Part shown: in pieces, positions 44,018-47,031 of the stretch
Layout: each line of letters starts with the position of its first letter
Position numbering within the stretch: position 1 is the stretch's first letter
Assembly (NCBI GenBank): GCA_028712475.1
Contig: JAQTQB010000001.1
Location: 584,180 to 648,179, forward strand
Reading direction: 5' to 3'
DNA: 64,000 bases
Source of the DNA: Verrucomicrobiales bacterium
GTDB taxonomy: Bacteria > Verrucomicrobiota > Verrucomicrobiia > Limisphaerales > UBA11358
Program-made: the position numbers and the translations under genes
Notes under the pieces: generated by a model
Seen by the model: the letters and a program-made list of their open reading frames with translations, nothing else
Told to the model about the DNA's origin: nothing
Databases searched by the model: none

Positions 44018-44905
44018 ATGAACGAACCCATTTTACAGCTCGACCTGCCCGGCATTACCAAAGTCCGCTCCGGCAAGGTCCGCGAAGTCTATGACCTTGG
44101 CGACGCCTTCCTGCTCGTCGCCAGCGACCGCATCTCCGCCTTCGACGTCATCATGCCCAACGGCATTCCGCGCAAGGGCGAGGTGCTCACGCAGATCTCG
44201 CATTTCTGGTTCGAGAAATTTGCCTCAATCGTGCCGAACCACCTGCTCGCCAAGGCGGATGATCCGCTGCCGAAAAATTTGCAGCCGTTCGCTGCCCAGC
44301 TAGCACGCCGCTCGATGATCGTGAAAAAGGCCAAACCGCTCGCCATCGAGTGCATCGTGCGCGGTTATCTTTCAGGCAGCGGCTGGAAGGAATACAAAAA
44401 ATCCCAGACCGTCTGCGGCATCCAACTGTCCGCCGGCCTGACCGAATCCGCCGAACTGCCCGAACCGATTTTCACGCCGTCCACCAAGGCCGAGGCCGGC
44501 CACGACGAGAACATTTCCTTTGCGGAGGCATGCAAGATTGTCGGCACCGACCTCGCCACCCAGGCGCGCGACTTGAGCCTGATGATCTACAAGGCCGGAC
44601 GCGATTACGCCCGCCAGCGCGGCATCATCATAGCCGACACGAAATTCGAGTTTGGATTGTTCGAGGGCAAACTCATCCTCATTGATGAAGTGCTCACGCC
44701 CGATTCCTCGCGCTTCTGGCCCGCCGACCAATACGCGCCCGGTCGCGGCCAGCCAAGCTTCGACAAGCAATTCGTCCGCGATTACCTCGAAACGCTGACG
44801 TGGGATAAAACCCCGCCCGGCCCGGTGTTGCCCGCCGACGTCGTCGCCAAAACCAGCGCGAAGTATCTGGAAGCGTATGAGAAGCTGACGGGCAGAAAAC
44901 TGTGA
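44018..44905 (+). CDS. purC: SAICAR synthetase (phosphoribosylaminoimidazole-succinocarboxamide synthase)
   Basis: Joins CAIR and aspartate with ATP in purine synthesis. The 295-residue yeast/long-type protein has SGKVREVYDLGDAFLLVASD, DRISAFDVIMPNGIP, IECIVRGYLSGSGWKEY, SFAEACKIVG and LIDEVLTPDSSRFW. The start at MNEPILQLDLPG is preferred to an ATG at 43946 inside the repeat element. The last 61 nt of the gene recur at 45428-45488 (54 of 61 identical), and its TGA overlaps the GTG start of the next small gene by 4 nt. Confidence 0.94.
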   Translation: MNEPILQLDLPGITKVRSGKVREVYDLGDAFLLVASDRISAFDVIMPNGIPRKGEVLTQISHFWFEKFASIVPNHLLAKADDPLPKNLQPFAAQLARRSMIVKKAKPLAIECIVRGYLSGSGWKEYKKSQTVCGIQLSAGLTESAELPEPIFTPSTKAEAGHDENISFAEACKIVGTDLATQARDLSLMIYKAGRDYARQRGIIIADTKFEFGLFEGKLILIDEVLTPDSSRFWPADQYAPGRGQPSFDKQFVRDYLETLTWDKTPPGPVLPADVVAKTSAKYLEAYEKLTGRKL

Positions 44906-45204
44906 CCGAAATCACCAAATCCAAAAACGGCGTATTCATCCGGCTCACGGACGAACGCTGGTCGCACATCAGCGAGGAACACGCCGAGCTGGCGGGTTTG
45001 AAGTTGGACGTGCTGGAAACCGTGGCCGAGCCGGAACGGATTCTGGCTGGCGGCGCGGGCGAACTCCTCGCGCTCAAAAAACAAACCGATGGCAAAATTC
45101 TCGTGGCCGTGTATCGTGAGGAGGCTGGCGACGGCTTTGTCGTCACCGCGTTTCTGACGCGGCGCGAAGCCGCGCTCAACCGGAGAAAGCAATTATGGCC
45201 GTAG
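44902..45204 (+). CDS. small protein of a TA-like pair (BECR/DUF4258-like)
   Basis: A 100-residue protein starting at GTG 44902 inside the purC stop. It contains IRLTDERWSHISEEHAELAG, AEPERILAGGAGELLALKK and DGFVVTAFLTRREAALNRR, a conserved pattern of small proteins found beside DUF2283 genes. The short alpha/beta fold with His and Arg residues resembles RelE/BECR-type RNases, so a toxin role is plausible but unproven. Its stop overlaps the partner start by 10 nt. Confidence 0.72.
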   Translation: MTEITKSKNGVFIRLTDERWSHISEEHAELAGLKLDVLETVAEPERILAGGAGELLALKKQTDGKILVAVYREEAGDGFVVTAFLTRREAALNRRKQLWP

Positions 45205-45422
45205 CCGAAATCAACGAATATGTGAAGATGCTGGCCACCGTGAAAGGCACGCCGCATCGCTACCTCTGGTCGTCCTACGATGCCGAGGCCGATGTGCTTT
45301 ACATCAACTTCAAAAAGCCCAGTCACGCCACTGATTCGGAAATGACCGACGACGACATCCTCGTCCGCTACGAAGGCGAGGAAGTGGTCGGTCTGACCGT
45401 GCTGCACGCCAGCAAACGCTGA
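45195..45422 (+). CDS. DUF2283 protein, probable partner of the upstream gene
   Basis: A 75-residue protein with the DUF2283 signature SYDAEADVLYINFKKP, then DDDILVRYEGEEVVGLTVL. DUF2283 proteins are common as the second gene of two-gene TA-like modules. The pair occupies exactly the space between the two copies of the purC 3' end (44845-44905 and 45428-45488). Confidence 0.78.
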   Translation: MAVAEINEYVKMLATVKGTPHRYLWSSYDAEADVLYINFKKPSHATDSEMTDDDILVRYEGEEVVGLTVLHASKR

Positions 45423-45427
45423 ACGCC

Positions 45428-45488
45428 CGCCAAAACCAGCGCGAAGTATTTGGAAGCGTATGAAAAGTTGACTGGCAAAAAACTTTAA
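45428..45488 (+). repeat. duplicate of the purC 3' end
   Basis: 61 nt match 44845-44905 with seven substitutions and no indel. It still reads as the last PurC codons (KTSAKYLEAYEKLTGKKL) and ends TAA instead of TGA. It has no start of its own, so it is a vestige or the original tail displaced by insertion of the 44902-45422 gene pair. Confidence 0.92.
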
Positions 45489-45501
45489 CTCTGCGCGTCA
45501 T

Positions 45502-46236
45502 ATGAAAGGACTACTCGTTCGCGTTGGCGCTGATCAAAGTGAAGGAGGTGGTCACTGGAATGGATTGGTGAACAGCCGAACCGGAGAATTTGTTTATGTT
45601 CCAATTCCCGAAACCGGCACGATTTTTCCGCAGTTTGAAAAGCCTTATTCATTGGTGAAACCGGCACTTGAACGATTCGGTTTTTCACTGCCTGGTTATT
45701 TGGCTGGGAACAAAATGCACCTTGATCCAGATTTTTCTCATTTGAGTTATGGCGATCAAGGCCAGCGGGCTGCACAAATTTCGACAAAATTGGGAGAGGG
45801 TGACTTACTGGTTTTCTATGCGGGCTTGCGTGACGTTCATCCGCAACCGCGATTGATTTACGCCATCATTGGATTTTACGTTGTTGATCGAATTGAAAAA
45901 GCGTCGTCAGTTTCACCGATGCTACACGATGCAAACGCGCACACTCGCCGAATTTTGTCACCAAGCTCGACGGACATTGTGATTCGAGCGAAGCCGGCGA
46001 TTTCGGGACGCCTTGAGAGATGTTTACCGATTGGTTCGTTTCGCAAACCGGCAGGACAACCACAAAAAAATCCCTCTTACCGTGTTGAGAGCAGTCTGTT
46101 GGAAAATTGGGGCGGATTGAGCATGGCTGACGGTTTTTTGCAGCGCAGTGCTCGCCTGCCTGAATTCAACGACGCGAATCGTTTCTATGATTGGTTTTCG
46201 GGACAACGAGTGCCGCTTCTCCAAACCAACAACTGA
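45502..46236 (+). CDS. nucleotide-modification-associated (Nmad3-like) protein
   Basis: A 244-residue protein whose N-terminus MKGLLVRVGADQSEGG then GEFVYVPIPETG resembles the Nmad3 pattern (R.G.D.S.GG ... IPIP), a domain predicted to act in DNA base hypermodification systems. Other marks: FSHLSYGDQGQRA and LGEGDLLVFYAGLRD. It is followed 6 nt later by an Nmad2-like gene, which supports the call. Lower GC than purC suggests transfer. No modifying enzyme (such as a TET/JBP or glycosyltransferase) is visible next to it. Confidence 0.6.
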   Translation: MKGLLVRVGADQSEGGGHWNGLVNSRTGEFVYVPIPETGTIFPQFEKPYSLVKPALERFGFSLPGYLAGNKMHLDPDFSHLSYGDQGQRAAQISTKLGEGDLLVFYAGLRDVHPQPRLIYAIIGFYVVDRIEKASSVSPMLHDANAHTRRILSPSSTDIVIRAKPAISGRLERCLPIGSFRKPAGQPQKNPSYRVESSLLENWGGLSMADGFLQRSARLPEFNDANRFYDWFSGQRVPLLQTNN

Positions 46237-46242
46237 CAAAAT

Positions 46243-46843
46243 ATGAAGCCAAAAATCTTCGTTTACAAAATGGTCGCCGACAACGGGGGGGGCGCCATGT
46301 GTTTGGCACGGTTTGTTGAGCCTAGCGATTTGCAAGCCGAAGATTCGCAAAAGCGCTGACGAAGGAGATTTTATTTTGGGTTTTGGTGGCAGAAGCCGAT
46401 TCCCCAAAGAACCTTTGATTTACATAGCGAAGGTTACAGCAAAGCCCAAAGTTGGCGAATACTACAAACTGCCAAAGTATGAGAATCGGCCAGATTGTAT
46501 TTATCACGGTGTTGACGGCGAGGTTCGACTGAAAACCAATGCTCATTTTCACAACAAATCCGATGAGCGAAAAACGGACGTTGGTTGGCACTTTGAAAAC
46601 GCATATGTCTTGTTGAGCAATGATTTTCGCTATTTTGGATCAGAAGCAACGGCTGAATACAAAAAGCAATTTCGTCTGATTAAAGATTTAGTCGAAAAAC
46701 TCAATCGAGGCGCACGAGTCAATCATCCGCCAGAAAGATATAATGAGCTTTTAGATTTGGTGAGTCAAACTTGGCGCAACAATTCCGAAAAGCAAATTGG
46801 CAAACCGACCCATTTGGACAAAAGCTTGGTTTGTAACAAATAA
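46243..46843 (+). pseudogene. Nmad2-like gene with frameshift at a G8 tract (possibly phase-variable)
   Basis: The gene starts MKPKIFVYKMVADNGG at 46243 but after the run of eight G (46285-46292) the frame leads to a TGA at 46357-46359. With seven G (or one less mod 3) the reading becomes GAPCVWHGLLSLAICKPKI, the conserved Nmad2 core, and continues to 46843 (DFILGFGGRSRFPKEPLIYI; HFENAYVLLSNDFRYFG). So it is either a decayed or phase-OFF allele, or a sequencing error in the homopolymer. Nmad2 is predicted to be part of DNA base modification systems. Confidence 0.7.
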
Positions 46844-47031
46844 TTGTTTTGGCCTGTGCAAACACTCGTCGAAGATTTTCTGCAATACCTGCGCCATGAG
46901 CGCGGGCAGTCGGACAACACGGCGTAGCGTTTGTTTGCCGAAGACGCTGTCGAATGATGAAATAAAAACTGCTTGCGCCGGAGTTGCCGGAGACCAGGGA
47001 AAAGTTGCGGGCTTGATGCAGGCGGCCTTGT

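Follow-up and report, generated by a model that had tools for sequence, protein, structure and literature searches.

An otherwise intact Nmad2 gene is frameshifted at a run of eight G in the assembly of a Verrucomicrobiales bacterium

Homopolymers are the commonest site of miscounts in sequencing and assembly, and defence genes can profit from on/off switching. A cut-off of seven G or C flags candidate phase-variable runs in Campylobacter (PMC6321876), and a survey of frame transitions named indels or sequencing errors as the main source of singleton frameshifts (PMC3711429). A nucleotide modification associated domain is among the predicted, so far untested, defence domains (PMC13092281); our literature search returned nothing beyond this prediction on what Nmad2 or Nmad3 does, and nothing on phase variation in metagenomes. 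Here, we describe an Nmad2 gene (PF18753) found in a 64-kb stretch of a contig from a Verrucomicrobiales bacterium (the window). Like the poly-G/C phase-variable genes of Campylobacter and Neisseria, this gene carries eight G near its 5' end and is out of register. Unlike those systems, it is a single gene, its run is absent from homologues, no variants in its length were observed and it does not belong to a set of such genes.

The run is a perfect homopolymer, the sole G8 or C8 in the window, and lies after codon 14 of the Nmad2 gene (Table 1), in agreement with the earlier note, which had placed a frame break near codon 15. The frame that starts at ATG 46243 reads MKPKIFVYKMVADN over its first 14 codons, then enters the G run; from there on its residues are foreign to the family, and a premature TGA ends it. 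Relative to this frame, the conserved Nmad2 sequence (GGAPCVWHGLLSLAICKPKIR...) is shifted by one base, and the neighboring frame that carries the core comprises 198 open codons, G run included. In the closest homologue found (L012, from a Deltaproteobacteria MAG, 56% identical), YKLVADGGGAPCVWRGLLSLAICKPKIRK is uninterrupted in one frame, so the register of the window Nmad2 changes inside the G run. The homologues are continuous across the N-terminal strand and the D-x-G-x-A-P motif, whereas the window gene does not read through them in one frame. As the frame is broken at the run in the assembly, what we report is a frameshifted Nmad2 gene and not a working member of the family.

Table 1. 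Features of the Nmad2 locus and its surroundings (positions within the window)
Feature	Position	Strand	Basis
Resident purC 3' end, first repeat copy	44845..44906	+	sequence comparison
Neighboring two-gene cassette (100-aa ORF and DUF2283 protein) between the purC-end copies	44902..45422	+	ORFs, Pfam, comparison
Second purC 3'-end copy, 89% identical, upstream border of the Nmad cassette	45428..45489	+	sequence comparison
Intact Nmad3 (PF18754), conserved partner of Nmad2	45502..46236	+	Pfam E 5.5e-21; alignment
Truncated frame, Nmad2 start codon to premature TGA (46357-46359), 38 codons	46243..46359	+	sequence, translation
G8 homopolymer, site of the broken Nmad2 frame	46285..46292	+	sequence
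Remaining Nmad2 (PF18753) in the neighboring frame; 176-aa ORF listed from internal TTG	46313..46843	+	ORF list, Pfam profile, alignment
xerC-like tyrosine recombinase 5' fragment, downstream border of the Nmad cassette	46857..46926	+	sequence comparison

The neighboring frame matched PF18753 (E 1.5e-23, profile positions 13-197), with 74.9 bits for the ORF downstream of the run and 84.3 bits in the genome search, both above the curated cut-off of 26.1 bits, which bears out the Nmad2-like identity proposed from the letters alone. The rest of the gene had also been described as intact. Alignment to relatives revealed a single frame break and no second lesion, and 41 of the 42 columns invariant across the other members compared are retained, the sole change being K to R. 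Prolonged decay is therefore not indicated. Besides the frameshift, the window copy differs from the family by a C-terminal tail ∼8 residues shorter than that of its closest relatives, where the structure model has very low confidence. An alignment-based scan for Nmad2 recovered 15 genome loci and zero viral loci. Single-sequence scans found no close relative in genome or viral contigs, a phage search gave no match and a plasmid search gave one weak match.

Dinucleotide shuffles of the window led us to expect ∼2.3 G8/C8 runs, so the run alone is unremarkable under that model. By the standard of its own genome, the run is rare: G/C runs of at least eight number 3 in the 698-kb contig and 9 distinct ones in the 3.4-Mb genome. 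That so rare a run coincides exactly with the only break in the frame suggests slippage, in the cell or during sequencing, as the cause. None of the other runs among the genome's nine was seen to break an identifiable gene: the runs of eight in two clear genes (L140 and L147) keep the frame, a run of 13 falls at the very end of a histidine kinase gene, and the remaining ones are intergenic or lie in frames of uncertain status. Across 24 homologous loci (∼20 distinct), the G run at the Gly-Gly-Ala motif measures 2-5 and every gene is in frame; the G8 is thus private to the window copy, in which the conserved Gly-Gly-Ala codons form an unbroken G run unlike that of any relative found. In the long ORFs of the contig, GGG accounts for 13% of Gly codons and runs of at least seven occur at 1 of 272 Gly-Gly-Ala/Gly sites. 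A long run at such a site is accordingly unusual, although chance could produce one over a whole genome.

We favor, at somewhat short of an even chance, the view that Nmad2 was recently acquired and suffered one slippage indel within a G run that had formed by chance. This explanation is preferred because the break falls exactly inside the window's only G8, because the gene bears no other lesion, because its homologues are in frame with shorter runs and because long G/C runs are rare in the genome and respect the frame in clear genes. The Gly-Gly-Ala codons of the acquired Nmad2 would have happened to form the unbroken run, and replication slippage within it would have put the downstream Nmad2 one base out of register. 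Translation would then end after 38 codons, leaving Nmad3 unaffected and parting the first strand and the GGAPC motif from the remaining Nmad2 protein. We infer that the indel is a real and recent mutation that arose outside any evolved switch. Mutation of the G8 run in either direction would be expected, but there is no sign that it was selected for switching.

An almost undecayed gene is also predicted by a sequence error or by a switch, which weakens the case for a slippage mutation. Nmad2 could be intact in the cell and the homopolymer miscounted by one in the sequence or assembly, a possibility that we take seriously but consider less probable than a mutation. Singleton frameshifts are often errors (PMC3711429), and the small number of contigs in the genome (only 29) may mean that long reads were used. 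The other eight-long G/C runs in clear genes, which read in frame, speak against a miscount, as does the absence of homopolymer frameshifts from ∼80 kb of coding sequence of the same contig that we compared with relatives. In addition, the A/T run spectrum is similar to that of the relatives. Together, the A/T spectrum and the ∼80-kb comparison mildly disfavor systematic homopolymer error, and the latter also adds to the case for a slippage mutation. The frameshift candidates that emerged from this comparison were rejected as homopolymer errors, as they lie at sites without long runs and resemble gene boundaries or diverged repeats. On contig C9 of G000, runs of five to six G/C occur at about half the frequency found in the sampled relatives, runs of seven are much rarer, and runs of at least seven are scarcer too. 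The latter scarcity could hint at uneven base calling and, to that extent, weakens the slippage mutation. In a single assembled sequence, a mutation would be indistinguishable from an error or from a mixed population.

The earlier note had read the run as possible phase variation. In that case, slipped-strand mispairing at the G8 would toggle Nmad2, which would be made by only part of the population. Defence genes can gain from such switching, and the run is close to the 5' end of a gene with no other lesion, inside a reading frame that differs with the length of the homopolymer. Furthermore, the G8 exceeds the Campylobacter cut-off of seven G/C (PMC6321876), and a nucleotide modification associated domain is predicted to serve in defence (PMC13092281). 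However, a repeat tract kept in homologues, as at phase-variable loci, was not seen, zero of the homologues at the 24 loci having a long run, and the genome lacks a set of out-of-frame G/C runs in genes. The run also encodes the conserved Gly-Gly-Ala, so codon drift may have produced it, and singleton frameshifts are mostly put down to indels or errors (PMC3711429). The phase-variation reading is thus unsupported, and we consider an evolved switch unlikely. Elsewhere in the genome, the final codons of the histidine kinase gene contain the 13-long G/C run (L134, G000:C15:21323-21335), ∼40 bases upstream of the next gene, which encodes a response regulator; its length makes this run a stronger candidate for variation than the one in Nmad2.

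The frameshift cuts off the first strand of Nmad2 together with its conserved D-x-G-x-A-P motif, and what lies downstream is therefore unlikely to function alone. Nmad2 might be expressed despite the shift if transcription slipped or ribosomes changed frame on the G run, or if translation began at the internal TTG at 46313; the open downstream frame, which includes the run, and the presence of that TTG speak for this. We consider it very improbable, since no relative uses such a signal and since a start at the TTG, which has no clear ribosome-binding site before it, would drop both the first strand and the D-x-G-x-A-P motif. We therefore rank a one-off slippage mutation first, followed by a sequence error, an evolved switch and expression despite the shift; this ranking and the confidence attached to each explanation are judgements rather than computed probabilities.

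The gene had been grouped with DNA-modification genes, a label that we now doubt, as the predicted fold is nearer to readers of modified bases. A structure model of the L012 homologue (pLDDT 81) matched mainly PUA-like domains of the EVE, YTH, and ASCH types, including THYN1 bound to 5-methylcytosine DNA. Foldseek returned THYN1 with an E of 0.013 and a prob of 0.77 (the best E being only ∼0.01). VIA-align gave Z scores up to 7.9, where values below 8 may reflect a common arrangement, and sequence identity was only 5-12% in the rows shown. Nearly all leading matches come from one superfamily, with modest scores that settle nothing alone. Nmad2 thus looks, weakly, like a modified-base reader of the PUA/EVE/YTH fold rather than a modifying enzyme, and its likeliest role may be reading modified bases, perhaps in defence. 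The structure model of Nmad3 (pLDDT 64) was too poor for interpretation. A fuller scenario, in which a mobile Nmad3-Nmad2 pair with Nmad2 as the reader is switched by the G8 and forms an active, possibly defensive module in part of the population, appears to us slightly less likely still than the evolved switch by itself.

Nmad3 lies immediately 5' of Nmad2 in the window, and both exceed their Pfam model cut-offs well. The same order, with Nmad3 directly followed by Nmad2 after an overlap or gap of a few bases, recurs in relatives (L003/L008, L007/L013, L009, and L012); Nmad3-Nmad2 is a conserved pair. Within the genus, the genes are rare: 3 of 49 genomes have Nmad2 and 2 of 49 have Nmad3, and the frameshifted Nmad2 gene is absent from the other genomes of this set. 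PADLOC gave no match to known defence families, NCBIfam gave nothing relevant and PHROGs gave a single match, of Nmad3 to a family of unknown function. At another locus (L025, G003:C62), a second Nmad3 follows a gene for a HerA-like ATPase, a family assigned by eye, and precedes a different small protein with no Nmad2; judging from this locus, Nmad3 may change partners.

The Nmad stretch has a G+C content of 44-50%, versus ∼58% for the contig, and the pair is probably a foreign, A+T-rich cassette. It lies between the second copy of the purC 3' end and a fragment from the start of a xerC-like recombinase gene. In G035, purC and the xerC-like gene are adjacent, apparently as an empty site, and other members of the genus hold differing cargo between them, including the DUF2283 cassette, a NERD nuclease, a GIY-YIG/DUF4357 protein, a DNA alkylation repair enzyme, and a Cro/C1-type HTH protein. 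Extra copies of the purC end or the xerC start occur in G007, G015, G017, G046, and G047. The region between purC and the xerC-like gene is a genus-wide insertion hotspot, in which repeated fragments of the purC 3' end and the xerC 5' start flank the cargo cassettes; these may plausibly have entered by recombining at the purC and xerC ends that they share with it. It spans 44845-46926 in the window and is also seen at L040, L044, L109, and L120-L123, with border fragments sometimes in tandem. The same contig carries a second copy of the recombinase start, plus further matching sequence, at 207807. In the neighboring cassette, the gene for the 100-aa protein, which has no Pfam match, overlaps the DUF2283 gene. 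This cassette recurs after purC in G015 and G046 and resembles a toxin-antitoxin pair in layout.

Should the run switch, phase variation would extend to an Nmad module and beyond the pathogens that have supplied most studies of such runs; if it does not, this is an ordinary frameshift. That Nmad2 may read modified bases instead of modifying them may matter more than the frameshift. The purC-xerC hotspot, which carries nuclease, repair, and toxin-antitoxin-like genes, is arguably more interesting than the frameshift as well.
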